A DNA stretch of 51,742 nucleotides from a virus. Each line of letters starts with the position of its first letter. Positions within the stretch are counted from its first letter, which is position 1. The notes below the pieces were generated by a model. That model had not been told where the DNA came from and made no database searches. It was given only the letters and a program-made list of their open reading frames with translations. Shown piece after piece: positions 40 through 44,394 of this stretch. The DNA is taken from positions 1 to 51,742 of the IMG/VR virus record IMGVR_UViG_3300032288_000749. One strand, 5' to 3'. The translations under genes and the position numbers were made by a program.

Positions 40-116
40 TGGTGCCCTATGTAAGATTCGAACTTACAACCTTCGGTTTCTAAGACCGACACCTCTACCA
101 GTTGGGCTAATAGGGC
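40..116 (-). tRNA. tRNA-Leu(UAG), short variable region
   Basis: Cloverleaf on the minus strand with acceptor GCCCTAT/ATAGGGC, anticodon stem TCGGT/ACCGA, loop CTTAGAA (anticodon UAG) and T-loop TTCGAAT; CCA is encoded. The anticodon reads CUA (Leu), but the variable region is only 5 nt instead of the long arm of normal bacterial tRNA-Leu. The D-stem (GCCC..GAGG) pairs imperfectly. It shares this form with the Leu(UAA) gene at 6499-6575. Confidence 0.85.
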
Positions 117-120
117 ATAT

Positions 121-195
121 TGGAGCGGAGAATGGGATTCGAACCCACGACAACTTGCTTGGCAAGCAAGGACTCTACCACTGAGCTACCTCCGC
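121..195 (-). tRNA. tRNA-Gly(GCC)
   Basis: Minus-strand cloverleaf: acceptor GCGGAGG, anticodon stem CTTGC/GCAAG with loop TTGCCAA (anticodon GCC), T-loop TTCGAAT, encoded CCA. The 77-nt spacer to the next tRNA (196-272) has no ORF but can fold, for example GTGCC at 241-245 against GGCAC at 266-270. Confidence 0.95.
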
Positions 196-272
196 GAAAC
201 TTGACTGTTTTTCTCCCTGCAGGATTACAGTAAACCTGCTGTGCCCTAGGACCAACTAGGAAGGAGGCACTC

Positions 273-349
273 TGGAGGTCAGAGAAGGACTCAAACCCTC
301 AACCTTCGCGTTCGTAGCGCGATGCTCTATTCAGTTGAGCTATCTGACC
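273..349 (-). tRNA. tRNA-Arg(ACG)
   Basis: Minus-strand cloverleaf: acceptor GGTCAGA, anticodon stem TCGCG/CGCGA, loop CTACGAA (anticodon ACG), encoded CCA. A34 would normally need deamination to inosine by host TadA to read CGU/CGC/CGA. The 3' end of the small ORF at 327-494 overlaps its 5' part. Confidence 0.93.
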
Positions 350-494
350 AATTTTTCATTTCTTTTTGATGTTCTTTCTTTAACTCTTTATCACGGAAAT
401 CAATACACCAGCAGCAGTTACACCGCATTACCTTGTATTTCTTCCCCTTCATGTTCACATTACCAGCACCATAAGCAACTGGACTCTTAGGCAT
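327..494 (-). CDS. small Cys-rich protein (55 aa)
   Basis: Short ORF starting at an ATG preceded by AGGATG. It has a compact metal-binding-like cluster (MRCNCCWC) near residues 23-30, a Lys/Glu-rich C-terminal half and a stop inside the adjoining tRNA-Arg gene. Small proteins with such Cys clusters are common between phage tRNAs and often have no assigned role. The family is not recognised. Overlap with a tRNA means the last residues may be lost after tRNA processing, or that the reading frame is partly fortuitous. Confidence 0.5.
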   Translation of the reverse strand: MPKSPVAYGAGNVNMKGKKYKVMRCNCCWCIDFRDKELKKEHQKEMKNWSDSSTE

Positions 495-509
495 TGTGCA
501 TCCTATGTT

Positions 510-585
510 TGGAGGTGCATCCCAGAATTGAACTGGGTTCTCAAGGTTTTGCAGACCTGCGCAGTACCATCTTGCCCATGCACCT
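510..585 (-). tRNA. tRNA-Cys(GCA)
   Basis: Minus strand: acceptor AGGTGCA, anticodon stem CAGGT/ACCTT, loop CTGCAAA (anticodon GCA), T-loop TTCAATT, encoded CCA. Confidence 0.95.
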
Positions 586-593
586 AATTGTAT

Positions 594-667
594 TGGCTGG
601 GGATCAAGGATTCGAACCTCGGATAACGGAGTCAGAGTCCGCTGTTATACCACTTAACTAATCCCCA
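594..667 (-). tRNA. tRNA-Gln(CUG)
   Basis: Minus strand: acceptor TGGGGAT/ATCCCCA, anticodon stem GCGGA/TCCGT, loop CTCTGAC (anticodon CUG), T-loop TTCGAAT, encoded CCA. It reads only CAG. Confidence 0.93.
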
Positions 668-668
668 A

Positions 669-745
669 TGGCGACCTCGACCGGGCTCGAACCGGCGACC
701 TCTAGCGTGACAGGCTAGCGTTCTGACCAACTGAACTACGAGGCC
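669..745 (-). tRNA. tRNA-Asp(GUC)
   Basis: Minus strand: acceptor GGCCTCG, anticodon stem CTAGC/GCTAG, loop CTGTCAC (anticodon GUC), T-loop TTCGAGC, encoded CCA. Confidence 0.95.
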
Positions 746-918
746 TTGAAACTTATATGCTGGTTACTGCCATCCAGCGTCACCTTTTCGCGTGACAGAT
801 TGATTCGGGATAAGACGGCTGCTCATCTAGACTTCAGTGGCTAGTCACTATACCCAATCGTGGCCGCAGCGAGCAATTAACACGATCAGCGATATCGCAA
901 GATCCCAACCTTGCGAAT
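746..918. other. 173-nt inter-tRNA spacer with hairpins, no gene
   Basis: No start codon with a ribosome site is seen here. The minus strand can form CGCAAG..CTTGCG, GTCAC..GTGAC and CTGG..CCAG hairpins. It may be processed spacer RNA of the tRNA transcript. I see no known RNA family. Confidence 0.4.
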
Positions 919-993
919 TGGTTGCGGGGGTAGGAATCGCACCTACGACCTCTTGGTTATGAGCCAAGCGAGCTACTACTGCTCCACCCCGAC
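919..993 (-). tRNA. tRNA-Met(CAU), initiator-like 3' end and D-arm
   Basis: Minus strand: 5' arm GTCGGGG, D-arm GAGC..GCTC with a short 7-nt loop, anticodon stem CTTGG/CCAAG, loop CTCATAA (anticodon CAU), 3' arm CCCCGCA then A and CCA. The 3' half and D-arm match bacterial initiator tRNA. Positions 1-72 (G-A) and 2-71 (U-C) do not pair, as expected for an initiator. However, the anticodon stem has only two of the three G-C pairs that mark fMet tRNAs. Initiator, elongator or lysidine-modified Ile tRNA are all possible. Confidence 0.85.
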
Positions 994-999
994 ATAAAC

Positions 1000-1075
<76 letters not shown>

Positions 1076-1180
1076 AAAAAGATGAGGAGCTAACCGTGAC
1101 TCCTCGCGGATCTATTTAACGCGATCAACCGTGAGGGTTTTTGTAAGGCTAGTCGACGAATCGACACCCACAACCTTTCT

Positions 1181-1256
1181 TGGTGGAGGTAGACGGGATC
1201 GAACCGCCGACATTTTGCTTGCAAAGCAAACGCTCTCCCAACTGAGCTATACCCCC
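1181..1256 (-). tRNA. tRNA-Ala(UGC)
   Basis: Minus strand: acceptor GGGGGTA, anticodon stem TTTGC/GCAAA, loop TTTGCAA (anticodon UGC), T-loop TTCGATC, encoded CCA. Confidence 0.95.
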
Positions 1257-1260
1257 GAAC

Positions 1261-1336
1261 TGGCTCCCCGAGTAGGACTCGAACCTACGACCCAGCGATT
1301 AACAGTCGCTTGCTCTACCAGCTGAGCTATCGGGAA
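1261..1336 (-). tRNA. tRNA-Asn(GUU)
   Basis: Minus strand: acceptor TTCCCGA/TCGGGGA, anticodon stem AGCGA/TCGCT, loop CTGTTAA (anticodon GUU), T-loop TTCGAGT, encoded CCA. Confidence 0.95.
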
Positions 1337-1337
1337 A

Positions 1338-1589
1338 TTATCTTACAAGTCTACAGATACGTTCAGGCTTTTTGCCTGGATAATAAAGTGTATGACAGTG
1401 CACCACGGGATCATATATTGAACGAATATAGCCTTTGTTATCAATATGAGTTCTGTCAGTATTGACATTCATACCACGTTCGTAATTTACTGCTCTCGCA
1501 TCTTGACGAGGAGCATCTGGACTATACATTGCATTAGTTGAACAACCAGCAACGAATAGTAGTGAAGAAAGAATAAGAATGTGTTTCAT
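1338..1589 (-). CDS. small lipoprotein (83 aa)
   Basis: The N-terminus has a short basic segment, a hydrophobic core and a lipobox ending VAGC (Cys at about residue 16), so it should be exported and acylated. The mature part of about 67 residues is polar (NAMYSPDAPRQ...) with no motif I can place. It lies between tRNA-Asn and tRNA-Lys, its stop 1 nt from the tRNA. Phage lipoproteins of this size can act in superinfection exclusion or as outer-membrane spanin parts. No i-spanin partner lies next to it, so the function is open. Confidence 0.75.
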   Translation of the reverse strand: MKHILILSSLLFVAGCSTNAMYSPDAPRQDARAVNYERGMNVNTDRTHIDNKGYIRSIYDPVVHCHTLYYPGKKPERICRLVR

Positions 1590-1606
1590 AGTTGTATATA
1601 GTCAAA

Positions 1607-1682
1607 TGGTAGACCGTGCAGGGATCGAACCTGCGACAAACTGATTAAGAGTCAGCTGCTCTACCGACTGAGCTAACGGTCC
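1607..1682 (-). tRNA. tRNA-Lys(CUU)
   Basis: Minus strand: acceptor GGACCGT, anticodon stem GCTGA/TCAGT, loop CTCTTAA (anticodon CUU), T-loop TTCGATC, encoded CCA. A second Lys tRNA (UUU) is at 2482-2558. Confidence 0.95.
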
Positions 1683-1840
1683 ATGTATTCAGTGAGAAGT
1701 TTTCAGCCCGTATTGGTTAGACTGAAGGTCTCTCTGACCTCTAATGGGCTTTCTACGGCGCCAATCTGAATAGGTTACATACTAACCAAGAATTAGCCCG
1801 AATTGCATTTAGCAAATCGTGTCCGGTATGTAACCTAAAG
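1683..1840. other. inter-tRNA spacer with a foldable element, no gene
   Basis: At 1704-1751 the minus strand contains AGCCC..GGGCT enclosing AGGTC..GACCT, a stacked hairpin. I see no ORF with a ribosome site. It may be a degenerate tRNA or a processing structure. Confidence 0.35.
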
Positions 1841-1916
1841 TGGTGCGGGATGAGAGGGTCGAACTCCCGACATTCTGCGTGTAAAGCAGACGCTACTACC
1901 ACTGAGCTAATCCCGC
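1841..1916 (-). tRNA. tRNA-Val(UAC)
   Basis: Minus strand: acceptor GCGGGAT, anticodon stem TCTGC/GCAGA, loop TTTACAC (anticodon UAC), T-loop TTCGACC, encoded CCA. The D-arm (GCTC..TAGC) has one mismatch and a slightly long loop. Confidence 0.92.
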
Positions 1917-1921
1917 ATATA

Positions 1922-2011
1922 TGGAGGAAGGAGTGGGATTCGAACCCACGGTGGACTTTCACCCACGCTAGTTTTCAAGACTAGAACCTTAAACCGCTCG
2001 GTCACCCTTCC
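1922..2011 (-). tRNA. tRNA-Ser(UGA)
   Basis: 90-nt class II tRNA on the minus strand with a long variable arm, anticodon stem CTAGT/ACTAG, loop CTTGAAA (anticodon UGA), acceptor GGAAGGG and encoded CCA. It shows that this array can encode a proper class II tRNA, unlike the two Leu genes. Confidence 0.95.
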
Positions 2012-2015
2012 AAAT

Positions 2016-2092
2016 TGGTCGGAGATAGAGGATTCGAACCTCTGACCCTCTGCTCCCAAAGCAGATGCGCTACCAGACTGCGCTAATCTCCG
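2016..2092 (-). tRNA. tRNA-Pro(UGG)
   Basis: Minus strand: acceptor CGGAGAT, anticodon stem TCTGC/GCAGA, loop TTTGGGA (anticodon UGG), T-loop TTCGAAT, encoded CCA. It is the first tRNA downstream of the structured RNA element. Confidence 0.95.
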
Positions 2093-2097
2093 TATGT

Positions 2098-2260
2098 GTT
2101 ATAAAATGGCTAACATTAGCAAATGCTCATAGTCATTTTATAACGTTGTTTCTACAAAGACACGCCAAACCATAGTGCGAACCACACGGATCAAGGTGCA
2201 GGTGGGACTCTCACCCACTGGCGTGCCTATGAAGAAACAACTTTCGTTGTTCCTACCAGA
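2098..2260 (-). ncRNA. candidate structured RNA, unknown family
   Basis: In minus-strand order there are three elements. (a) GGAACAAC-GAAA-GTTGTTTC, an 8-bp hairpin with a GNRA loop (2234-2253). (b) A 9-bp stem GTTGTTTCT/AGAAACAAC (2233-2241 with 2145-2153) that encloses an 8-bp stem GGCACGCC/GGCGTGTC (2220-2227 with 2159-2166) and an inner GTGGG/CCCAC hairpin, forming a multi-branch fold. (c) An immediately abutting 11-bp stem GTTATAAAATG/CATTTTATAAC (2098-2108 with 2134-2144). Elements (a) and (b) compete for the same strand. There is no ORF. A sigma70 promoter (2295-2323) lies just upstream and tRNA-Pro just downstream. The family is not recognised. Confidence 0.6.
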
Positions 2261-2286
2261 TTAAATTGTCAAACAGCAAGTTTCCA

Positions 2287-2293
2287 TATTTAG
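2287..2293 (-). promoter_or_regulatory. CTAAATA late-type box
   Basis: CTAAATA on the minus strand, directly downstream of the -10 hexamer of the sigma70 promoter. It matches the T4-like late promoter theme seen elsewhere in the window, so the structured RNA could be transcribed both early and late. Confidence 0.35.
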
Positions 2294-2294
2294 T

Positions 2295-2323
2295 ATCATA
2301 CCACAATGGCTCCCCATTGTCAA
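2295..2323 (-). promoter_or_regulatory. sigma70-type promoter for structured RNA/tRNA array
   Basis: TTGACA (2318-2323), 17-nt spacer, TATGAT (2295-2300). The predicted start is about 2288. It abuts the 3' end of tRNA-Glu and points into the structured RNA and the tRNA array below it. Confidence 0.8.
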
Positions 2324-2324
2324 G

Positions 2325-2399
2325 TGGTAGAGCGTACGGGAATCGAACCCGTCTTTCCAGCTTGAAAGGCTAGCGACCTAACCGATAGTCGAACGCTCC
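2325..2399 (-). tRNA. tRNA-Glu(UUC)
   Basis: Minus strand: acceptor GGAGCGT, D-arm GACT..GGTC, anticodon stem CTAGC/GCTGG, loop CTTTCAA (anticodon UUC), T-loop TTCGATT, encoded CCA. Confidence 0.93.
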
Positions 2400-2403
2400 A
2401 TAT

Positions 2404-2477
2404 TGGTCCTCCGACAAGGTAACGATCCTTGGTCGCACGATTATCAGTCGTGTGCTCTACCTTTGAGCTATCGGAGG
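2404..2477 (-). tRNA. tRNA-Ile(GAU)
   Basis: Minus strand: acceptor CCTCCGA/TCGGAGG, anticodon stem CACGA/TCGTG, loop CTGATAA (anticodon GAU), encoded CCA. The T-loop reads ATCGTTA rather than the usual TTCGANN, so U54 is lost; this is unusual for an active tRNA. Confidence 0.85.
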
Positions 2478-2481
2478 AAAT

Positions 2482-2558
2482 TGGTAGACTCTTCGGGACT
2501 CGAACCCGAGACCTTCGGTTTAAAAGACCGCTGCTCTAACCTACTGAGCTAAGAGTCC
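2482..2558 (-). tRNA. tRNA-Lys(UUU)
   Basis: Minus strand: acceptor GGACTCT, anticodon stem GCGGT/ACCGA (outer pair open), loop CTTTTAA (anticodon UUU), T-loop TTCGAGT, encoded CCA. Confidence 0.93.
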
Positions 2559-2801
2559 TCAGTGGCAGACTCGACGTTCTCGCAATCCGTATGGAGTACG
2601 ATCCCAAGTCGTAAAGCAACGAGGACGTGGCTGTACGAACACAGGTCGCGGTGCCGCATAGTACGGACGAGCAACGGGATACGGTGCTGGAGTGTACACA
2701 TCGACCACAGGGCGAGGACGATAATATCCACCATCATACACAGTCGCGTTGCAGCCTGCGAGACCAAGCGCAAGAACTGAGACTGCCATAATTCGTTTCA
2801 T
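2559..2801 (-). CDS. Pro/Arg/Tyr-rich lipoprotein (80 aa)
   Basis: Signal peptide with lipobox LAGC (Cys near residue 17), then a low-complexity mature region rich in Pro, Tyr and Arg (YYRPRPVV, APRPVFVQPRPR). I place the start at MKRIMAV because GGAG lies 6 nt ahead and the ATG overlaps the upstream stop (ATGA), implying translational coupling. Its stop touches the tRNA-Lys gene. Pro-rich lipoproteins are typical of o-spanins (Rz1), but no i-spanin is adjacent here. Function not assigned. Confidence 0.7.
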   Translation of the reverse strand: MKRIMAVSVLALGLAGCNATVYDGGYYRPRPVVDVYTPAPYPVARPYYAAPRPVFVQPRPRCFTTWDRTPYGLRERRVCH

Positions 2802-3094
2802 GCTACACTCCATTCATAGTCGTCGATTGTACAGACGGATTCATTTCCGTCGTATTCGTCGATGCGATATTTAGTCCCCGCAGGGAGCTCTGTGATACGC
2901 AAATCAGAAAATCTTGTGTTTGCTTCGTCACCAAGTTCTTCTACGACTTGCACAAGAGCGGGATCAGCGCGATTGATATCTGAGCGGCTAGTTGCCTGAC
3001 CGCCAAGTTCGCGATATCGTTCCCATGCAGCTTCCGAAAGACCGAAGCCACCGAAGCAAGCGTTATATACTATCTTAGTCACTTTCATCTCCAT
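2798..3094 (-). CDS. conserved-looking hypothetical protein (96-98 aa)
   Basis: It starts at ATG 3094, or at ATG 3088 (MKVTKIVYNACFGGFGLS). The long open frame extends upstream through tRNA-Arg, but that part cannot be coding. The N-terminal segment with its Gly/Phe-rich turn resembles small proteins seen in many tailed-phage early regions; the function is unknown. GGAG sits between the two ATGs, so initiation is ambiguous. A TTGACA followed 17 nt later by TAAGAT overlaps the start and could be an internal promoter. It ends coupled (ATGA) to the lipoprotein gene at 2559-2801. Confidence 0.65.
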   Translation of the reverse strand: MEMKVTKIVYNACFGGFGLSEAAWERYRELGGQATSRSDINRADPALVQVVEELGDEANTRFSDLRITELPAGTKYRIDEYDGNESVCTIDDYEWSVA

Positions 3095-3101
3095 TGTCAA
3101 G

Positions 3102-3178
3102 TGGTGATCGCGGATGGACTCGAACCATCGGCCCACAGCTTAGAAGGCTGTTGCTCTATCCGACTGAGCTACGCGACC
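3102..3178 (-). tRNA. tRNA-Arg(UCU)
   Basis: Minus strand: acceptor GGTCGCG, anticodon stem ACAGC/GCTGT, loop CTTCTAA (anticodon UCU), T-loop TTCGAGT, encoded CCA. Reads AGA/AGG. Confidence 0.95.
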
Positions 3179-3298
3179 TTTTCTCGTATAACGTTTACGT
3201 GACTGCTTGATCCGCGCACGGTATTTAGCAGTTGCCAAGTCCTTAGCAATAGGATTACGTTTTAATCCTTTGCAGCTTTCCGACGAGTTCCCAGTCAT
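3140..3298 (-). CDS. small basic protein (52 aa), NP-AKDL type
   Basis: ORF with ATG 9-10 nt after AAAGG. It is strongly basic (KRNPIAKDLATAKYRARIK, SRKRYTRKGR). Short basic proteins built on an 'NPxAKDL...KYRxR..KKxYxRK' pattern recur in many phage genomes, so I regard it as real although it overlaps the end of the gene at 3255-3443 and runs into tRNA-Arg. A nucleic-acid-binding role is only a guess from charge. Confidence 0.55.
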   Translation of the reverse strand: MTGNSSESCKGLKRNPIAKDLATAKYRARIKQSRKRYTRKGRVAQSDRATAF

Positions 3299-3443
3299 AC
3301 GTTTTTACCTTTGTCTTTTTGTTTTTGACGAAGTCCATCTTGTAGCCAGTAAAATCCTCTAGGTACTTTACCGCTTCCTCGATGTTATCGAATTCCTTGA
3401 TGCCAACATTCTTATTCAGATATGGCTTTGCTCTGTACTTCAT
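3255..3443 (-). CDS. hypothetical protein (62 aa)
   Basis: It starts at MKYRAKPYLN; the frame is open further upstream but overlaps the GP88-like gene. It is charged and Lys-rich, with a likely helix-strand mix (NIEEAVKYLEDFTGYKMDF). It overlaps the stop of the upstream gene by 4 nt, which fits coupled translation. No family recognised. Confidence 0.65.
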   Translation of the reverse strand: MKYRAKPYLNKNVGIKEFDNIEEAVKYLEDFTGYKMDFVKNKKTKVKTYDWELVGKLQRIKT

Positions 3444-4081
3444 GCTGCAAGTTCCTTTACCAGCTTGCCCATACGACGACCGTGGGCAGGATAAGCAACG
3501 ACTGCAACATCTTTCGACCAGCAAGCGCGGCAATCACCGCACTTACCAGAACGCTCGTAAGCATCGCAAACCTTGGTTGCAGTTGTTTCGCTGTCGGCAA
3601 ACGGGATAACCGTCGAACCGTGATCAGCGTCATACTCGCCAGTCATTGAGTCCGACGAGAAACGAACTGCAGCGTTAGGAAGCTGCTTCATGCGTTCAAG
3701 GATTGCACGAATACGCGGAACCTTGTAGGACTTAGTTGGCAGCCAGTGACGAACATGAGGAGTCTTTTGCATGACAAGAAAAATCTTGAAAGCCAAAGCA
3801 GGATGATATACGTCGCCAGAGTCGAACCAGCGAAAATACTTTTGACGCTTCAGCTCGGCAACCATATCGTCGACCCACTCAGCACGCTTCCAATCCTCGC
3901 GGTTGTGCTCACGGACTTTAATCGCGTCAGGCATCATATAGAAACCCTCGGCAGCATAGCATCCGGCACAAACATCGACAGGCTGCTTCGTATTCGGATC
4001 AATAGATCCGGGGCAGGTTTTGCGTGCTTGGAGTGACCAAGACTTAGCAGGCATCTTGGAGGCTTTCGACAACTTAATCAT
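3440..4081 (-). CDS. GP88-family phage protein (213 aa)
   Basis: The N-terminus (LSKASKMPAKSWSLQARKTCPG followed by CAGCYAAEG) matches the phage GP88 family first named in mycobacteriophages. That family has conserved Cys residues (TCPG, CAGCYA and a C-terminal CGDCRACW) suggestive of a metal or Fe-S site; its biochemical role is unknown. The start at MIKLSK is chosen because GGAG lies 8 nt before it, whereas the earlier ATG (4102) has no ribosome site. It is driven by a sigma70-like promoter at 4116-4145. Confidence 0.8.
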   Translation of the reverse strand: MIKLSKASKMPAKSWSLQARKTCPGSIDPNTKQPVDVCAGCYAAEGFYMMPDAIKVREHNREDWKRAEWVDDMVAELKRQKYFRWFDSGDVYHPALAFKIFLVMQKTPHVRHWLPTKSYKVPRIRAILERMKQLPNAAVRFSSDSMTGEYDADHGSTVIPFADSETTATKVCDAYERSGKCGDCRACWSKDVAVVAYPAHGRRMGKLVKELAA

Positions 4082-4115
4082 TACCAAATCTCCGTTGTTC
4101 ATTTATCTTAGCTTT

Positions 4116-4145
4116 ATGATACCACGGGCTGACTGGTATTGTCAA
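4116..4145 (-). promoter_or_regulatory. sigma70-like early promoter
   Basis: TTGACA (4140-4145), 18-nt spacer ending CCCGTGG, TATCAT (4116-4121). It sits about 35 nt upstream of the GP88-like gene and belongs to the recurring GTGGTATNAT promoter family. Confidence 0.75.
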
Positions 4146-4170
4146 GTGCCCGTGGTACTTAAAACCAAGA

Positions 4171-4734
4171 TTACTCGGAATATGTTTCGCGCTTCAGGTA
4201 TTCCTGAACGCTAGCACGAGCTGCAGCCTTTTCTTCTGCTGCAATTTCAGCTTCAGAAGCATAGAACGACTCGCGGATCGCACGCTGTTCGGGAGTCAAA
4301 CGATCCTCGATGCGCTGTAACTTCTGCTTGGCAGAGACAGCGCGCATCGTCTTGAGGTTCGCAGCCTTGACAGCTTCGTCTGACTTCTTGGAAGGTGACT
4401 TGTTACGAGCAACGATAGCATCGACCTCTGAGCTGATCTGCTTAGCGGTTACAGTCTTGGTACGAGCCTTGGAAGCCTTCGGCTTAGCAGCAGCCTTGGG
4501 AGCAGCAGCAAGCGCGGTAGGGGTCGAGGTAGTACGATAAGAAACAACAGCCTTACCACCGTCGCGAACGGCCTCTAGCTTGATGCCAGCCATACGAGCG
4601 TGCGACAAAGCGGAACGAGCACGACGCTCGTTACCAGTAACCTTGAGCAGCTGATCGGGAGTAAAGGTGTTACCGTTTGCCTTGAGCAGGTCGATAACGA
4701 AGTTAGCTTTGGTAGGGTTCAACTTGATAGCCAT
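4171..4734 (-). CDS. Ala/Lys-rich DNA-binding-like protein (187 aa)
   Basis: Residues 1-65 look like a winged-helix unit (FVIDLLKANGNTFTPDQLLKVTG..RRARSALSHARMAG). They are followed by an Ala/Lys/Pro-rich linker (about 75-105) and a charged helical tail. The same arrangement of a helix-turn-helix start with 'LL..NG..LT..QL' is seen in the 87-aa protein at 47502-47765, so the two may be distant paralogues. A role in binding phage or host DNA early in infection is inferred from its own promoter and charge, not shown. Confidence 0.7.
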   Translation of the reverse strand: MAIKLNPTKANFVIDLLKANGNTFTPDQLLKVTGNERRARSALSHARMAGIKLEAVRDGGKAVVSYRTTSTPTALAAAPKAAAKPKASKARTKTVTAKQISSEVDAIVARNKSPSKKSDEAVKAANLKTMRAVSAKQKLQRIEDRLTPEQRAIRESFYASEAEIAAEEKAAARASVQEYLKRETYSE

Positions 4735-4767
4735 AATGTACAGGTCCTTTGTTGGTGACTATGATAT

Positions 4768-4797
4768 AACATACCACGGGATTGTGGTTATTGTCAA
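4768..4797 (-). promoter_or_regulatory. sigma70-like early promoter
   Basis: TTGACA (4792-4797), 18-nt spacer ending CCCGTGG, TATGTT (4768-4773). It drives the gene at 4171-4734, which has AAGGA before its ATG. The -35 overlaps the stop codon of the 33-aa ORF upstream. Confidence 0.7.
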
Positions 4798-4895
4798 GGG
4801 CGGGAGATAAGAAAACCGTAGGTGAATACCGCAAGCATGACAGCGACGAGCGACAGGAGGGGGGCTACGACGATGAAGATGTCTGAGGTACTCAT
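4794..4895 (-). CDS. 33-aa single-span membrane peptide
   Basis: MSTSDIF followed by one hydrophobic segment (IVVAPLLSLVAVMLAVFTYGFLI) and a short SRP tail. AAGGA lies 9 nt before the ATG and a dedicated promoter is at 4930-4959. With its own promoter and ribosome site it is probably real. Single-span early phage peptides often target host envelope proteins, but nothing specific can be said. Confidence 0.6.
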   Translation of the reverse strand: MSTSDIFIVVAPLLSLVAVMLAVFTYGFLISRP

Positions 4896-4929
4896 ATACT
4901 GGTTTCCTTCTCTCTTTACCTTATGATAT

Positions 4930-4959
4930 ATCATACCACGGGATTAGCGGTATTGTCAA
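4930..4959 (-). promoter_or_regulatory. sigma70-like early promoter
   Basis: TTGACA (4954-4959), 18-nt spacer ending CCCGTGG, TATGAT (4930-4935). It lies about 35 nt before the 33-aa membrane peptide. Confidence 0.75.
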
Positions 4960-4993
4960 CGGACAAAACCCATTTTTTTGAAACTTTTTTGTT

Positions 4994-5143
4994 TCAATCT
5001 CCGTTACTTTCCCAAGCAGAAATAAGAGCATTGTAATTGATTTCGTAAGGGAGATTGAGAGTTTCAAGTTGCTTCAAGAATGTAATCTTTTCTGCAACAG
5101 TCTCCAATGCTTGAAAGTCTCTATAAATCGACTGCAGATCCAT
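4994..5143 (-). CDS. hypothetical protein (49 aa)
   Basis: ORF MDLQSIYRDF... ending in ESNGD, with AAAGGG 7 nt before the ATG and a promoter at 5222-5250. It is acidic and mostly helical. The leader contains a CTGATTGT/ACAATCAG inverted repeat near 5168-5198. Family not recognised; a real early gene judging by promoter and ribosome site. Confidence 0.6.
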   Translation of the reverse strand: MDLQSIYRDFQALETVAEKITFLKQLETLNLPYEINYNALISAWESNGD

Positions 5144-5221
5144 TTTTTACCCTTTATATTAGAGAAGTCTGATTGTTACTTTATTGTTACAATCAGCTGA
5201 GAGCGGGTGCTCTATACTGCT

Positions 5222-5250
5222 ATCATACCCCAAGGGGGTTATATTGTCAA
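5222..5250 (-). promoter_or_regulatory. sigma70-like early promoter
   Basis: TTGACA (5245-5250), 17-nt spacer, TATGAT (5222-5227). It heads the 49-aa gene with a leader of about 70 nt. Confidence 0.75.
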
Positions 5251-5309
5251 GTGCTCTATGACTCTCGTAACTGATCTGAGAGGGGGTCTATAGGGTAGGG
5301 GTACCTAGC

Positions 5310-5339
5310 AAAAAGGGTGTGACAACAATATCACACCCT
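5310..5339 (-). terminator. rho-independent terminator
   Basis: Minus strand: AGGGTGTGA/TCACACCCT 9-bp stem (5314-5322 with 5331-5339) followed by a five-T run. It ends the PP-loop transcript 45 nt after that gene's stop and insulates the early promoters below. Confidence 0.85.
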
Positions 5340-5383
5340 AATCCTAGTGACAAATATATCACAATCCTAACTAGATAGGTTTT

Positions 5384-6499
5384 TCATTCTATAAAATACA
5401 CTCCTGTCTTTATAGGAGAAAGATATTTCCTTTCTCTATCATCTGGATCGACTGTAGAAAAGTACGACTCAGCAATATCTAAAAAACGATCTTTGTAATT
5501 TAGATTGCTATTTAAGAACCATTCATCGCGCAGAGAGTAAACAAATGAACTAGCTTTACCATTACAGAAAATGCTATTAGACCATTTTGGATATATAATG
5601 GATTTGACTGTATTGTCATTCAAATAAGCATCAAACTTTTTTGAGTAACCGTTGAAACTTCTAATAGTATTAAAATATATTCTATTATCGGATAACTTTA
5701 CAAAATTCAATATTGCATGTGCTTGTTTAACAGGAATTAAAGGATAGTCAGGTGTCCAATAAAAAAACTCGTCGTACCAACCTTTAAAATAGTTTCTTTG
5801 AACATAGGGAGTAACACAGTTATCAACATTATCGCAAAACTCTACATAATGTTTATCGTGCTTTCTGGAGTACCTAATCATAGGCTTTTCTTTACCCCAA
5901 ACAAAGCACAACTTCTTTCCTTGTTCTATTAAGTTTTTATAATCGTCAATCTTTTCGCGGAACAACGATCTGGCTGGATTATTAGGGCTCATGTGGAAAT
6001 TGACATTATATTCAAACTCTGTCTTCCACGTATCAATGATATCAATACAGAACTGAGATATATCAACAATACGAAATTTAAACTCAAACGATTCTTGTAG
6101 CTTTTTTATATCTGGAAGAACAACGTTTGTGATTTCAGCGTTATAGTGATTCTGATAGTCACCTGTTGCTTCATAATTCCAAGTCGTAGCTATTTCATCA
6201 ATCTTGAGACCAGCGTCAATCCATGCAAGAAGTAGATTGTGACTATCAGAACCACCAGAATACCATAATACGACATAATCATACGCATCGCGGATCTGTC
6301 TTGCTCTTTGCTTGTACATTTCCCAGAGATCTGTCTCTGGCTCTTTTGTCCAATCAATCGCATTAAAGACTTCATTATTAAAGTTCCATAAGACTTTATC
6401 GCCATAAATTTTAGACCACTCTACAGCTTCAAACTTGCTATAGGATGTTCTTTCACCAACTTGATAGTAACCGAATTTGTCAGGATTAAATGTAATCAT
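5384..6499 (-). CDS. PP-loop (ATP pyrophosphatase) family enzyme (371 aa)
   Basis: Residues 74-90 (YVVLWYSGGSDSHNLLL) contain the PP-loop SGGSDS that binds ATP in PAPS reductases, QueC, TilS and asparagine synthetases. The rest is Tyr/Trp/Phe-rich and lacks the Fe-S cysteines of classical PAPS reductase. Such enzymes adenylate a carbonyl or sulfate before transfer. In a phage this could serve tRNA or nucleotide modification, but the substrate is unknown. The first base of its ATG is the terminal A of the CCA of tRNA-Leu(UAA), and there is no Shine-Dalgarno. A strong terminator follows. A second PP-loop gene is at 36397-37221. Confidence 0.75.
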   Translation of the reverse strand: MITFNPDKFGYYQVGERTSYSKFEAVEWSKIYGDKVLWNFNNEVFNAIDWTKEPETDLWEMYKQRARQIRDAYDYVVLWYSGGSDSHNLLLAWIDAGLKIDEIATTWNYEATGDYQNHYNAEITNVVLPDIKKLQESFEFKFRIVDISQFCIDIIDTWKTEFEYNVNFHMSPNNPARSLFREKIDDYKNLIEQGKKLCFVWGKEKPMIRYSRKHDKHYVEFCDNVDNCVTPYVQRNYFKGWYDEFFYWTPDYPLIPVKQAHAILNFVKLSDNRIYFNTIRSFNGYSKKFDAYLNDNTVKSIIYPKWSNSIFCNGKASSFVYSLRDEWFLNSNLNYKDRFLDIAESYFSTVDPDDRERKYLSPIKTGVYFIE

Positions 6500-6575
6500 G
6501 GTACCCGCAGTCGGATTCGAACCGACACTGTCAAGATTTTAAGTCTCGTTCCTCTGCCTGTTGGGATATGCGGGC
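6499..6575 (-). tRNA. tRNA-Leu(UAA), short variable region
   Basis: Minus strand: acceptor GCCCGCA, anticodon stem CGAGA/TCTTG, loop CTTAAAA (anticodon UAA), T-loop TTCGAAT, encoded CCA. The variable region is 5 nt, so it is class I in shape despite a Leu anticodon. The D-arm (TCCC..GAGG) resembles that of Leu(UAG) at 40-116. The CCA overlaps the start codon of the next gene. Confidence 0.87.
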
Positions 6576-6576
6576 A

Positions 6577-6696
6577 TTAGAAACACATATTATATAGTGT
6601 CTGTAGATCAAAGAAAATAGCTGGACCGTACGCCTTCCAGAGTAGCAGTCCAGCTATCAGTAACAAAGCAGCAAAAATATATGCTGCCCTAATCAT
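6577..6696 (-). CDS. 39-aa membrane peptide
   Basis: MIRAAYIF then a single hydrophobic span (AALLLIAGLLLW) and a short tail. The ATG shares a base with the TAA stop of the beta-barrel gene (TAATG), so translation is probably coupled. The ORF stops 2 nt before tRNA-Leu(UAA). Family unknown. Confidence 0.55.
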   Translation of the reverse strand: MIRAAYIFAALLLIAGLLLWKAYGPAIFFDLQTLYNMCF

Positions 6697-7223
6697 TAAA
6701 ACTTGAAGTTTACGCCAAGCGTCAGACGATCATCAGGACGTGTACGATCCCAATCTTCGATACGACGATAACGAGTATCAACTTCGATATTACGAGAGAT
6801 GGCATACTTAATACCACCGCCGATATTCCAAGTCTTTTCGTTTGCTACATCAGACCAGCGATATCCAACACCGGCAAGACCGTATGGTGAGAATGAACCA
6901 AACTTCAAAGAAGTGATTACATTACCAGCAACATCTTGTGTATCACCCTGCTTGTAATCATAGGTACCTTCAATTCCAAGACCGAGAGGGCCAAGGCGAA
7001 CAACATTATAACCACCAACTACGCCAATAGTCCATGGTGCATTACGATTAATACCATCTGAAACAGCACCACCAGCATTTACACCAATCCACATCTTTGG
7101 CTCAACAAGTGATCCACCAATAGGTGCAGTTGGATTTGTACGTGATGGAATGCTCGACGTGTCGGAAGCAACAGCAGAAACTGTGCTTACAACCAGGGCG
7201 AGTGCTACGAGTGCCTTCTTCAT
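6696..7223 (-). CDS. outer-membrane beta-barrel protein (175 aa)
   Basis: A signal peptide (MKKALVALALVVSTVSAVA, cleavage near residue 20) is followed by alternating hydrophobic/polar strands with Gly/aromatic turns (WTIGVVGGYNVVRLGPLGLGIEGTYDY, SPYGLAGVGYRW, RLTLGVNFKF). It ends in Phe, as outer-membrane barrels do for BAM recognition. The size fits an eight-stranded OmpA/opacity-type barrel. Known phage-encoded porin-like proteins can alter the host surface or block superinfection; that role is inferred here. The ribosome site is AAGGAG before ATG. Confidence 0.8.
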   Translation of the reverse strand: MKKALVALALVVSTVSAVASDTSSIPSRTNPTAPIGGSLVEPKMWIGVNAGGAVSDGINRNAPWTIGVVGGYNVVRLGPLGLGIEGTYDYKQGDTQDVAGNVITSLKFGSFSPYGLAGVGYRWSDVANEKTWNIGGGIKYAISRNIEVDTRYRRIEDWDRTRPDDRLTLGVNFKF

Positions 7224-7232
7224 ATTTACTCC

Positions 7233-7310
7233 TTAGTTGAAAAACGCATTATACAAAAGCAGGATACTTCCTGCAGCAAGTGCCATCCAATTACAGATGA
7301 CTAACGCCAC
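7233..7310 (-). CDS. possible 25-aa membrane peptide (GTG start)
   Basis: Between tRNA-Gly and the barrel gene a frame ends ...GSILLLYNAFFN. A GTG at 7310, 8 nt after GGGA, is the best start. One hydrophobic span. The open frame continues upstream into tRNA-Gly, so the true start is uncertain and the ORF may be chance. Confidence 0.3.
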   Translation of the reverse strand: MALVICNWMALAAGSILLLYNAFFN

Positions 7311-7336
7311 GGTGGTTTCCCACCAATCGCGAAGTT

Positions 7337-7411
7337 TGGAGCGGGCAACAGGATTCGAACCTGCGACGAACAGCTTGGAAGGCTGACACTCTACCTCTGA
7401 GTTATACCCGC
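7337..7411 (-). tRNA. tRNA-Gly(UCC)
   Basis: Minus strand: acceptor GCGGGTA, D-arm ACTC..GAGT, anticodon stem TCAGC/GCTGT, loop CTTCCAA (anticodon UCC), T-loop TTCGAAT, encoded CCA. It stands alone between coding genes. Confidence 0.95.
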
Positions 7412-18837: not shown

Positions 18838-19578
18838 TTAAATACCCTTAGGTGATACTGTAAAGTTGATAATACGATTACCCCAACCGTTTGACAGGTT
18901 ATTAGCAACAGCACCAGTAATCACAAGGTTAGCAGCATGCTTTGTTGCGTTCGAACCAGCTTCTGGATAGTAAAGCGAGTTACCACCACCTGTTACAGCC
19001 AGAGACTGAGCATTGACATGATATGTTGCCTTAGCAGATCCTGTGCCACCTTGCAGCTTAGGCATTGTGAATACAAGAACGTTGTTAGCTGTATTTGCAC
19101 GACCGCCCATATAACGAGCAACACCGTTGTTACCACCAGCTGTGTTAGCAAGATTGATTGTGATTGTATTACCAGATGCCTTGAATGCAACTGGCATATT
19201 GAACACAACGTAGAGGTTAGCAGATACGTTTGCTGAGATTACGTTATTTGCGTTTGTCTTGACGTAGATTTCTACGATATCTGGATTGCCCAGATAGGTA
19301 TTTGCATTGTAGTTGAATCCTGATCCAGGAGACGCAGCAACAAGGACTTCGTCAAACTGACGAACGTTGCCGTGTGTATCTACGCGATTCTGACGACGAA
19401 CCCAACCCTTATCGGTTGCAATCACGTTGCGCTTATTAGCAACCTGGATGTTGGTTGTACCGTCAGCTTGTGAACCAGAAGCAACTGGAAGAGGGCGATA
19501 ACCCTTTACGATACCGGCTACTGTATTTGCACCAGATGCTACCTGACCTGATTCTCTTGAAAAACCCCAAAGTGCCAT
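18838..19578 (-). CDS. virion structural protein (246 aa)
   Basis: Begins MALWGFSRESGQVASGANTV, a start seen in structural proteins of marine T4-like phages. Rich in Asn, Thr, Val and Gly with repeated 'NANNV' and 'ANT' turns, consistent with beta-sandwich virion proteins. It has AAGGA before its ATG and a CTAAATA late-type box at 19635-19641, about 57 nt upstream. Exact position in the particle unknown. Confidence 0.7.
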   Translation of the reverse strand: MALWGFSRESGQVASGANTVAGIVKGYRPLPVASGSQADGTTNIQVANKRNVIATDKGWVRRQNRVDTHGNVRQFDEVLVAASPGSGFNYNANTYLGNPDIVEIYVKTNANNVISANVSANLYVVFNMPVAFKASGNTITINLANTAGGNNGVARYMGGRANTANNVLVFTMPKLQGGTGSAKATYHVNAQSLAVTGGGNSLYYPEAGSNATKHAANLVITGAVANNLSNGWGNRIINFTVSPKGI

Positions 19579-31146: not shown

Positions 31147-31222
31147 TGGTGCTCCCAGAGGGACTCGAACCCCCGATCAAGCCGTTATGAGCGGCTGGCT
31201 TTAGCCACTAAGCTATGAGAGC
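31147..31222 (-). tRNA. tRNA with CAU anticodon (Met or Ile)
   Basis: Minus strand: acceptor GCTCTCA, D-arm GCTT..AAGC, anticodon stem AGCCG/CGGCT, loop CTCATAA (anticodon CAU), T-loop TTCGAGT, encoded CCA. It is fully paired at position 1-72, so not an initiator; it is elongator Met or, if lysidine-modified, Ile(AUA). It stands alone between the glutaredoxin and RlpA-like genes. Confidence 0.92.
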
Positions 31223-39739: not shown

Positions 39740-39768
39740 ATCATACTACATTAAGATGCCGGTGTCAA
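39740..39768 (-). promoter_or_regulatory. sigma70-like promoter with start at the polymerase ATG
   Basis: TTGACA (39763-39768), 17-nt spacer, TATGAT (39740-39745). Five nt separate the -10 from the ATG at 39734, so transcription should begin on or beside the start codon. Confidence 0.8.
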
Positions 39769-40086: not shown

Positions 40087-40551
40087 TTACTTAGTTACAC
40101 CTTGGATCTTTTCTTGACCACGGGACCATGCGGCAATACCAAGGACGGCACCCATTGCGAGATGGAATAGACCAGCGCCTTGCAGCGTGAGTGGATTCCA
40201 TTGTGTAAGTGGCATCTTGACCATAACCTGTGCGATTGACCACAGGACAGGGAAGATAGCCATATCAAGAACGCAGATGACCATATAGCACCAACCCATT
40301 GCGGGACGCCACTTTTTGACCATCCAGTCTTCATTCTGCTTTGCGTGTTCTGCTTCCCACTGCTTCTTTTCAAGTTCAATCTTAGCAAGCTGAGCTGCTT
40401 CTGACAACTGAGGAGCAGCTGGTGCTGCAGCATAACGTGGACTTGTATCAATATAGTTTGTCGGAATAGAAGCAGCTGCACCCTTTGTAGCAGGTGGAAT
40501 CATATCCATTGCTGGTTTTGGTTCGTCAGTTTCTACTGTAAAACGTGGCAT
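40087..40551 (-). CDS. holin, GTA 3-TM type (154 aa)
   Basis: N-terminal 70 residues are polar and Ala/Pro-rich. Then KKWRPAMGWCYMVICVLDMAIFPVLWSIAQVM and LFHLAMGAVLGIAAWSRG give two or three membrane spans and the WRPxMGW signature of the three-span holin family first described for gene transfer agents. It directly follows the endolysin gene (2-nt gap). It would form the membrane holes that release the endolysin. Confidence 0.8.
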   Translation of the reverse strand: MPRFTVETDEPKPAMDMIPPATKGAAASIPTNYIDTSPRYAAAPAAPQLSEAAQLAKIELEKKQWEAEHAKQNEDWMVKKWRPAMGWCYMVICVLDMAIFPVLWSIAQVMVKMPLTQWNPLTLQGAGLFHLAMGAVLGIAAWSRGQEKIQGVTK

Positions 40552-40553
40552 TA

Positions 40554-41174
40554 TTAACCTCCAAAGATTTCTAAGGCTGCTTCATAATGCTCTTGACGAT
40601 CTTTTAGTCCAATCGTTCCACCGTTGATTTTCTTTGTTACTGTTAGTACATCACCTTTGTCAGCCCACTGATTGAGTTCGCGTGAATCCCAGAACCAGCC
40701 CGCTGACCAAGCTGCACCTTCTGGTTCATCCAACCAAGCAGTTGCTTCTTCAAGACTCATGTTCATGTCTTGTGCGAACGCTTGATAGTTAGACTTGCCT
40801 GTTAATTGGATGAGTCCTCTTCCGCAGTAACGATAGCCGTCACCAGAGGCTTCATCACCATTGCCCATTCTACTAGAATAAACACGATTGGCAATTTTTT
40901 GAGGATTTCTAGCATAAGGTGTTGGATCCACTCCACGGAAATACTTAGGAAAAATGACCTTGAGTCTATCGGCTGAGTAGTTAAGATTTTCTTTAATTGT
41001 TCTCAGTCCACCAGACTCATGACCGACTTGTGCAAGAAACATAGAAATACGTTGTGGCGTATTAATTTCGTAGAACTCCATCACTTCATTCAGGAACTCT
41101 ACATACTTTTCGATAACATCTTCGTTTGTATCTTCGAAGAAGTCATTTAGTTGCTCAAATGTTACTAAAGCCAT
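40554..41174 (-). CDS. endolysin, GH19 chitinase-type (206 aa)
   Basis: FLAQVGHESGGLRTIKENLNYSADRLKVIFPKYF (about 45-78, catalytic Glu in GHESGG) and YRYCGRGLIQLTGKSNYQAF (about 114-133) are the hallmarks of the GH19 fold used by many phage lysozymes. No signal peptide, so it needs the holin. Its ribosome site GGAGG is inside a GAAA-capped hairpin (41179-41194), and a CTAAATA box just upstream would start late mRNA within that hairpin. Confidence 0.9.
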   Translation of the reverse strand: MALVTFEQLNDFFEDTNEDVIEKYVEFLNEVMEFYEINTPQRISMFLAQVGHESGGLRTIKENLNYSADRLKVIFPKYFRGVDPTPYARNPQKIANRVYSSRMGNGDEASGDGYRYCGRGLIQLTGKSNYQAFAQDMNMSLEEATAWLDEPEGAAWSAGWFWDSRELNQWADKGDVLTVTKKINGGTIGLKDRQEHYEAALEIFGG

Positions 41175-41178
41175 AAGC

Positions 41179-41194
41179 GCCTCCTTTCGGAGGC
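41179..41194 (-). promoter_or_regulatory. hairpin masking the endolysin Shine-Dalgarno
   Basis: Minus strand GCCTCC-GAAA-GGAGGC: six perfect pairs and a GNRA loop, with the GGAGG ribosome site forming the 3' arm, four nt before the ATG. Any longer transcript entering from upstream would have the ribosome site closed. Confidence 0.8.
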
Positions 41195-41201
41195 TATTTA
41201 G
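41195..41201 (-). promoter_or_regulatory. CTAAATA late-type box at the endolysin gene
   Basis: CTAAATA immediately precedes the masking hairpin. A start 5-7 nt downstream would remove the GCCTCC arm and leave GAAAGGAGG free. Confidence 0.55.
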
Positions 41202-41258
41202 CCGTAGAAACGATTACCCATCATTGAGCAAAAAAACGTTTTGAAATCGACGAACCAT

Positions 41259-41411
41259 TTAAGCATTTGACTTATACTCCAGATGAGTTTTCCAGGCAAC
41301 GAATACGATCTCTTCGCGTTCTACACCTAGGATATTGAGTTCTTCGTCGGTAAGCTTCATTAGCTCAATAATCGTATTATAGTATCGGAATGTTCGAGTG
41401 ATCCAATCCAT
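41259..41411 (-). CDS. DUF1127-like small protein (50 aa)
   Basis: MDWITRTFRYYNTIIELMKLTDEELNILGVEREEI: the 'L..LtDeeL..iGv.R.eI' pattern matches DUF1127/YjiS-type small proteins that are abundant in alphaproteobacteria, where some bind RNA and affect phosphate or central metabolism. AGGAG lies before the ATG, and a strong terminator (41428-41458) sits upstream. An alphaproteobacterial origin is suggested but the similarity is short. Confidence 0.55.
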   Translation of the reverse strand: MDWITRTFRYYNTIIELMKLTDEELNILGVEREEIVFVAWKTHLEYKSNA

Positions 41412-41427
41412 GTGTTTCTCCTAAAAT

Positions 41428-41458
41428 AAAAACAGCTGGGCGACTGCTGCCGCCCAGC
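41428..41458 (-). terminator. rho-independent terminator after Hsp20 gene
   Basis: Minus strand GCTGGGCG/CGCCCAGC 8-bp stem (41435-41442 with 41451-41458) then TGTTTTTATTTT. Separates the Hsp20/RegA/clamp-loader transcript from the DUF1127-like and lysis genes. Confidence 0.9.
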
Positions 41459-41484
41459 GCATGACCAATAAATCAATAATTTGA

Positions 41485-41943
41485 TTAGTCCTTGATTTCG
41501 ATTTTCTTAGGCTTCTGATGCTCAGGAATAAAGTTTTCGAGCCATACCTTAAGAATACCGTTAACCATTTCTGCGTTCTTGATTTCTACAGAATCAGCGA
41601 GAGTAAAGTGGCGTGTGAATGCGCGCTCTGCGATTCCCTTGTAGAAGTAGTATGATCCAGCATTATCTGTATCGTCGGCTTCTTTGGTCTTCCCTGTGAT
41701 AGTGAGCTTACCACCATCGAGAGTGATTTCAAGATCCGTCTTGGAAAATCCAGCAACTGCCATTTCGATAACATACTTATTATCCTCTACCTTCTTAATA
41801 TTGTACGGTGGATAACCTGGAAGAGCTTTACCAATACCGTCAAGTTGTGACGCAAGAAGTTTGAATGTCTTATCGAAACCGACAGACAATGGATCAAACT
41901 GACCGAAGAGTGAAGGGATTTGTGCGTAGTCGTTCTTAGTCAT
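41485..41943 (-). CDS. Hsp20 small heat-shock protein (152 aa)
   Basis: Alpha-crystallin domain: YNIKKVEDNKYVIEMAVAGFSKTDLEITLDGGKLTITGK (about 47-85), AFTRHFTLADSVEI and NGILKVWLEN (the G-I/V-L motif). An IbpA-like ATP-independent holdase; T4-like phages of cyanobacteria and alphaproteobacteria often carry one, probably assisting capsid assembly. AAGGAGG precedes the ATG. The leader holds a TTCG-capped hairpin (41979-41997) below a CTAAATA box at 42001-42007, and a terminator follows the gene. Confidence 0.88.
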   Translation of the reverse strand: MTKNDYAQIPSLFGQFDPLSVGFDKTFKLLASQLDGIGKALPGYPPYNIKKVEDNKYVIEMAVAGFSKTDLEITLDGGKLTITGKTKEADDTDNAGSYYFYKGIAERAFTRHFTLADSVEIKNAEMVNGILKVWLENFIPEHQKPKKIEIKD

Positions 41944-42000
41944 AGTAGATACCTCCTTAAAGCAAGGTTAACAATTTGTGACCCCGAAGGCGTCACGCTT

Positions 42001-42007
42001 TATTTAG
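42001..42007 (-). promoter_or_regulatory. CTAAATA late-type box for Hsp20
   Basis: CTAAATA on the minus strand in the gap between regA and the Hsp20 gene, 58 nt before the start codon. It is followed by the GTGAC..GTCAC leader hairpin. Confidence 0.45.
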
Positions 42008-42012
42008 CACGA

Positions 42013-42420
42013 TTAGTCGTTGGTTCGCTTCTTACCAATATTATATTTTGCTTCCAACTTCCATTCATGCTTTTCCTTATGCGCCAAAATCTTAATCTGA
42101 TTCAACGGCGCAATAGGATCCTTAGTACGCTCTAAATCTACTACGTCAATCAGCTCCCATTCAGCAAGCAGATTGGCAATAGTATTGCGGCGAGCCTTAT
42201 CTTCATCTGAGAAGTTGGTGGGCTTACCGTCCAGCGCGAACAATTCTTTGAAGTGAACAATATAGTATCGACCCTGCTTATGCAGGATGTGACATGACTG
42301 AAACAGAACTTTATCGCGTCGAGAAGCGACTCCGATACGAGTTAATGTCTCACGAATTTTTAGAAAGTCTTCGGCAGAGCGTAGCTTTACCTCTACCATA
42401 TTTTCAACCGATGCGTTCAT
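42013..42420 (-). CDS. regA: RegA translational repressor (135 aa)
   Basis: FLKIRETLTRIGVASRRDKVLFQSCHILHKQGRYYIVHFKELFALDGKPTNFSDEDKARRNTIANLL is near-diagnostic for RegA, which binds start regions of phage early mRNAs and represses them. Position between gp62 and the next genes follows the T4 order 44-62-regA-43, though here lysis genes separate regA from 43. It overlaps gp62 by 4 nt. Confidence 0.95.
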   Translation of the reverse strand: MNASVENMVEVKLRSAEDFLKIRETLTRIGVASRRDKVLFQSCHILHKQGRYYIVHFKELFALDGKPTNFSDEDKARRNTIANLLAEWELIDVVDLERTKDPIAPLNQIKILAHKEKHEWKLEAKYNIGKKRTND

Positions 42421-44365: not shown

Positions 44366-44394
44366 ATCATATTATGATAACTAATAAAAGTCAA
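44366..44394 (-). promoter_or_regulatory. sigma70-like promoter for the DUF262-HNH gene
   Basis: TTGACT (44389-44394), 17-nt spacer, TATGAT (44366-44371), just after the gp44 stop. The leader to the ATG is about 60 nt. Confidence 0.7.

Follow-up and report, generated by a model that had tools for sequence, protein, structure and literature searches.

A predicted ribosome-site hairpin directly downstream of a late-type promoter box at the endolysin gene of an environmental phage

In the case of T4 gene e, the Shine–Dalgarno sequence (SD) is closed in read-through RNA, whereas the late RNA lacks the 5' strand of the helix, and the effect is approximately 100-fold, according to the excerpted text of PMC3014915. 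The same excerpts describe a similar leader in close T4 relatives, and list Aeh1, 44RR, 25, 31 and FelixO1 as carrying the gene without apparent structure. In T4, the eight-base late box precedes the transcription start by approximately one helical turn, and the sequence immediately after the box is AT-rich (PMC2988020, excerpted text). According to the same excerpts, the Aeh1 late consensus has A/G-C at -13/-12, giving (A/G)CTAAATA.

The window analysed here is the whole of an IMG/VR record of 51,742 bases, and the phage is known from environmental DNA alone. Its T4-like gene content, all on the minus strand, comprises the sliding clamp 45, the clamp loader 44 and 62, RegA, Hsp20, the endolysin, a holin and the DNA polymerase 43. 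The comparison set consists of the window and seven relative contigs (eight contigs), in which 651 SD-bearing genes were called. Gene calls, start choices and energies were obtained with our own scripts. The window also carries 21 tRNA genes (40-7411 and 31147-31222, minus strand), and 18 of them are located within the first 3.2 kb.

The endolysin gene and the fold of its leader

The gene had been called an endolysin from the letters, and the call is right, as the ORF matches the PHROG 181 endolysin with an E value of 1.6e-79. Its PDB matches are chitinase-like proteins and phage endolysins, and T4 lysozyme is absent among the 28 matches with E up to 1. A gene e homologue was therefore rejected. 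The enzyme is presumably of the GH19 kind, and T4 e presumably represents another lysozyme family. The endolysin gene is located between hsp20 and the DNA polymerase gene 43, inside the replication cluster, in all eight contigs, and regA lies upstream in the same cluster.

The minus strand reads 5'-TAC GGC TAA ATA GCCTCC GAAA GGAGGC GCTT ATG-3' at the endolysin start (Table 1). This direct read confirms the layout of hairpin, SD, box and ATG. The sequence-only reading had given 41179-41201 with these letters, and CTAAATA directly upstream of GCCTCC-GAAA-GGAGGC, both of which are correct. It had also placed the SD inside the hairpin, four nucleotides before the ATG. The SD is indeed within the 3' arm and the loop edge, but the four-nucleotide gap is that of the arm end, and the SD itself is five nucleotides off. 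For the 50-residue ORF further upstream, the family name DUF1127 is our assumption.

Table 1. Features at and around the endolysin start (window positions)
Feature	Position	Strand	Basis or remark
Late-type promoter box GCTAAATA	41195..41202	-	sequence, motif counts; Aeh1-type consensus
CTAAATA core of box	41201-41195	-	direct read
5' arm GCCTCC of lock, immediately 3' of box	41189..41194	-	sequence, fold, relatives
GAAA loop	41185..41188	-	sequence, fold
3' arm GGAGGC, contains most of SD	41179..41184	-	sequence, fold
SD AGGAGG	41185-41180	-	five nt before ATG; hairpin 3' arm ends four nt before ATG
Endolysin ATG	41174-41172	-	preceded by GCTT spacer
Predicted late RNA 5' end	41188..41190; canonical 41189	-	inferred, 5-7 nt past box; T4 box ~-13 to -6
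22-aa ORF ending MMGNRFYG*, TAA within box; could couple translation	41198..41266	-	
50-aa ORF	41259..41411	-	DUF1127-like by eye
Endolysin ORF, 206 aa, chitinase-like	40554..41174	-	PHROG 181, PDB matches
Holin-like ORF, directly 3' of endolysin	40087..40551	-	profile match
Terminator-like hairpin after hsp20, tail TGTTTTTATTTT	41435..41458	-	terminator scan
Early-like promoter TTGACT-17-TATGAT, upstream in cluster	44366..44394	-	consensus match only

As in gene e, the SD of the long transcript is predicted to be paired. The claim that the hairpin hides it is borne out by a predicted opening cost of 11.8 kcal/mol, the third highest among the 651 SD-bearing genes of the eight contigs, and by a fold z of -3.69 for the 130-nt region, with 0/200 shuffles folding equally well. 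First place among the 651 goes to a wrongly called start that falls within a terminator-like hairpin. Against shuffled upstream sequence, the opening cost in the window gives z 2.9 and p 0.015. Within each contig, the endolysin ranks 2/50 (the window, where first place is a mis-called start), 1/144, 1/128, 5/121, 1/66, 5/58, 1/44 and 1/40 in SD closure, that is, first in five of the eight contigs, second in the window and fifth in two.

In shuffled versions of the window, the expected number of GCCTCCNNNNGGAGGC copies with no more than one mismatch is 0.01. When both arms were left free, 13 stretches of other metagenome contigs were matched; all but one of them, L131 at another gene, are endolysin leaders (12). 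The hairpin was rejected as an intrinsic terminator, as the stem is followed by GCTTATGG with no U run and the terminator scan matches 41458-41435 alone.

Two other leaders of the window may be structured. The hsp20 leader (41944-42007, minus strand) is a candidate ROSE-like RNA thermometer, with a sub-threshold Rfam ROSE_3 score (21.6 bits against the 43 needed, E 0.094); the hsp20 leader of L012 scores 25 bits (E 0.61). The motif YUYGCY...AGGAG is present in 71 of 76 distinct hsp20 leaders, including that of cyanophage S-RIM2 at 39% identity, and its flanking pair is C-G in 35, U-A in 20 and other in 16. In the excerpts of the literature searched, no paper joined phage, RNA thermometer, ROSE element and Hsp20, and none joined cyanophage and RNA thermometer. 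In the leader of a cytidylyltransferase-like ORF (27201 downward, minus strand), TATAAATA precedes a GAGAGCAG hairpin whose loop looks conserved, and there is another stretch like it. This leader recurs in G006 and G007 and has no Rfam family.

Leaders of relatives

Close relatives of the endolysin were found at 80 loci in viral contigs, and a distant seed gives more. A scan seeded by an alignment yielded mainly loci that were in the set before. Loci short of upstream DNA were excluded, and the 247 endolysin loci, which include contigs counted more than once, gave 103 distinct leaders in 41 leader clusters after filtering. Energy counts omit two clusters without an SD motif, and the percentile comparison (38 clusters) also omits Delftia phage PhiW-14. 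The PhiW-14 endolysin, located among structural genes, has no lock in this one case. The leaders differ widely among relatives despite similar endolysin proteins; the window protein is 76-88% identical to twelve aligned relatives.

With the 90th percentile among 643 other genes as the threshold, the opening cost is higher in 21 of the 38 SD-bearing leader clusters (binomial p 5e-12, Mann–Whitney 2e-6), p values that are too small because the leader clusters are related to each other. At protein identities of at least 75% the count is 15/21, and below 66% it is 2/11. With shuffled upstream sequence, p is below 0.05 in 13/39 clusters, and groups B and E do not reach this level singly.

The group labels A-H are our own. 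In group A, the window's group, the 5' arm is GCCTCC, GCTTCC (which pairs via G.U) or once GGCTCC (one pair broken), the 3' arm is constant, and the nucleotides before the ATG vary. Among its 12 sequences (9 distinct), no double compensatory change was found; one pair is C-G or U.G, and one sequence breaks a pair. L251, whose endolysin is 68% identical, has the GCTTCC version of the arm. In group B, both SD and AUG would be enclosed if UAGCGC at the box paired with GCGCUA, which lies in codons 2-3. In group H, UCCUU-A-CAGCU pairs with AGCUG-A-AAGGA and most of the box is in the loop. In group E, ACUC pairs with GAGU, and in the adjoining helix a G-C pair is replaced once by A-U, a double change.

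In the 20 distinct leaders of group C, the SD is closed by an AU-rich stem, and the 5' arm always includes TATATTATG. Although partly unpaired, TATATTATG is invariant (20/20; for example L241 and L060) in these leaders, which were selected by it. CTATATTATGCCGAGTAGTC is also found after a CTAAATA box before ORF 18838-19578 (window 19640, minus strand) and its orthologues. For group C, CTATATTATG is not supported as a general promoter: of the 26 CTATATTAT sites, just 7 lie in noncoding DNA ahead of a start, five of them being one orthologous leader. Group D, approximately 22 of the 103 distinct leaders as judged by eye, has a GC hairpin, in many cases with a U tail, that closely follows the box and does not include the SD. 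In leaders of this group such as L268, L270, L278 and L281, a start at the sixth nucleotide past the box would land in an arm of the terminator-like stem, because the box closely abuts the arm.

A usable box is present in 36 clusters, and 20 of these are locked when long, the criterion being an opening cost of 5 kcal/mol or more for RNA that begins 20 nt before the end of the box. If RNA begins instead at nucleotide 6 past the box, the cost falls by at least 45% in eight of the 20 (L001, L141, L038, L227, L207, L210, L256 and L201). The other 12 would not be freed by this start, and 10 of them belong to group C. Thus, the predicted unlocking by a late start holds for the window's group and several other leaders, not for all.

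The late-type box and the transcripts that may reach the gene

CTAAATA occurs 14 times in the window against 8.3 expected, a mild enrichment that 2/100 shuffles reach, and 13 of the 14 copies are on the minus strand. Of the TATAAATA copies, 58/87 lie within 100 nt upstream of a start, as do 42/101 of the CTAAATA copies, where 6.4% of positions is the expectation and the reverse motif control gives 32/514. A TAAATA-type box precedes gp18 (3/3), gp19 (3/3), gp22 (5/5), gp13 (3/3), gp48 (3/3) and the endolysin (8/8), a set that includes the genes for sheath, tube and scaffold. In the eight contigs it is absent before gp41 (0/7), gp43 (0/8), gp44 (0/8), gp45 (0/8), gp55 (0/6) and uvsX (0/7), and likewise before gp46, 47, uvsW and uvsY; the exceptions among early-type genes are gp62 (2/7), regA (1/8) and gp32 (2/3). 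According to these counts, TATAAATA or a variant lies upstream of late genes and is rare before early ones, as would be expected of T4-type late promoters. The gene for the late sigma factor gp55 is present in 6/7 relative contigs; the window, a fragment, gave no gp55 match. GCTAAATA agrees with the Aeh1 late consensus as given in the excerpts of PMC2988020. The AT-rich melting region that tends to follow the box in T4 is absent here, as GCCTCC comes directly after it. At a score of at least 16, a hairpin immediately follows 10% of 116 boxes and 5% of 554 control positions, which makes this arrangement only mildly general.

From the box-to-start geometry of T4 and Aeh1, the +1 position is expected at approximately 41189, the sixth nucleotide past the box and the last base of the 5' arm. 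A point against a late start is that the leader would then span just 15 nt and carry the SD 4 nt from its end. For RNA beginning at nucleotides 1, 2, 3, 4, 5 and 6 past the box, the predicted opening cost is 11.8, 8.2, 6.0, 3.4, 2.5 and 1.5 kcal/mol; the last value applies to a start at the position used by T4 late promoters, which falls within the 5' arm. The sequence-only reading had proposed that a late start 5-7 nt past the box frees the SD. The geometry and the predicted fall from 11.8 to 1.5 kcal/mol agree with this in the window, but the GC-rich stretch after the box and the 12 of 20 locked clusters that would not be freed do not.

The leader is probably a stage switch for lysis of the gene e type, which is the best account of these data. 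Early and middle RNA running in from the replication genes would carry the whole hairpin and keep the endolysin SD closed, which would also shut the start of the endolysin–holin pair. At the late stage, the phage late sigma factor would direct RNA polymerase to start at GCTAAATA. The RNA begun at approximately 41189, at the last 5'-arm base or in the loop, would lack the stem and be translated. Groups B, E and H are in line with this account while using different sequences. The hairpin with the enclosed SD, the box, the geometry, the predicted energies, the gene order and the recurrence among relatives come from sequence and computation, and from them we infer the use of the box, the RNA start site, the read-through RNA and the repression by the hairpin.

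That read-through RNA stays shut, as had also been proposed, agrees with the predicted closure, and the position in the replication cluster in 8/8 contigs makes read-through a risk; the upstream terminator-like hairpin and the 22-residue ORF, whose terminating ribosome could open the lock, are complications. A sigma-70-like promoter scan of 41000-42100 found none, and one terminator-like site (41458-41435) lies in this region. Upstream RNA must cross this site, which may already limit read-through, and the lock may be a second barrier. Another early-like promoter consensus is present at 39768, just before gene 43. TTGA-N9-TATG was rejected as a promoter, as its copies are mainly at one orthologous place after hsp20.

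The main rival, which we consider unlikely, is translational coupling: a ribosome on the 22-residue ORF, stopping at the UAA in the box, would cover the 5' arm and open the SD, so that endolysin output depends on how much the small ORF is translated, regardless of which promoter is used. The stop immediately precedes the 5' arm, at a distance of 26 nt from the ATG, and ORFs of 22-26 residues ending in MGNR(F/P)Y(G/S)* or near recur in the leaders of groups A and H, L219 and L251. However, a different ORF ends at the box in groups B and E, and therefore the small ORF is not constant. Stops near boxes are expected from compact gene spacing alone, and coupling would open the lock on the same transcripts that are supposedly silenced.

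A general repressor or sensor role of the hairpin is quite unlikely, in which it would respond to a protein such as RegA or to temperature on all endolysin mRNA, with the box not used as a promoter. The upstream regA gene, the thermometer-like leader of the adjacent hsp20 and the AU-rich group C lock, which would persist in RNA begun at the TAAATA box, are in line with it. On the other hand, a stem of six pairs, five of them GC, with a GAAA loop would make a poor thermometer, the box abuts the arm directly in groups A and B, and the Rfam search matched no RNA family at the endolysin leader. Termination as the main insulation, with the hairpin after hsp20 stopping upstream RNA and the SD hairpin minor or incidental, is very unlikely, as the endolysin ranks in the top five for SD closure in 8/8 contigs and the lock recurs with differing sequences, although a terminator-like hairpin lies between hsp20 and the endolysin in 8/8 contigs and the U-tailed hairpins of group D are not SD locks.

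Returning to the stage switch, a wider reading is tentative: with the endolysin of this clade in a replication operon, selection may have rebuilt an early-silencing leader repeatedly, as SD locks with the 5' arm in or at the late promoter (A, B, E, H), as an AU-rich SD lock (C) and as terminator-like hairpins with the 5' arm starting at the late box (D), so that escape is limited to RNA begun at the box. If this is true, phages would have a general device in which the hairpin blocking every other transcript carries a promoter in its arm.

Comparison with known systems

In the open-access literature, the excerpts searched held nothing closer than PMC3014915 to a lock of this type on a comparable endolysin. 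If the stage switch is real, the gene e switch is not peculiar to the T-even lysozyme, and a non-homologous lysis enzyme in uncultivated phages is controlled in the same way through different sequences. Keeping lysis genes silent early on would then be a selectable trait, traceable across leaders, and the leaders would provide a natural set of locks for reporter tests.

Compared with the Aeh1 variant of the T4-type late promoter, the window shares (A/G)CTAAATA and, in its relatives, the gp55 gene. The sequence just downstream is GC-rich in the window and AT-rich in T4, and the box of the window is a putative promoter (PMC2988020, excerpts). In the locks of T4 soc, 49 and I-TevI and of Aeh1 mobE, a helix likewise closes the SD or the AUG, and in I-TevI the helix is formed by the 5' part next to the late promoter, a likeness to the window; unlike the endolysin, these are not lysis genes (PMC3014915, excerpts).

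The likeness to T4 gene e, claimed from the letters, is partly supported. The window endolysin is not homologous by sequence, its gene is inside the replication cluster, 12 of the 20 locked clusters would not be freed, and the box is GCTAAATA, not TATAAATA, with one box against two in T4 according to the source excerpts. The function of the lock is predicted. The predicted lock, the box and the geometry agree with gene e. As far as the excerpts of PMC3014915 go, gene e has an SD sequestered in read-through RNA, a late promoter directly upstream in the region of the 5' strand and a late RNA without that strand; for the window, likewise at a lysis gene, these three features are predicted. Thus, the lock probably works like that of T4 gene e, on a lysis gene that is not its homologue.
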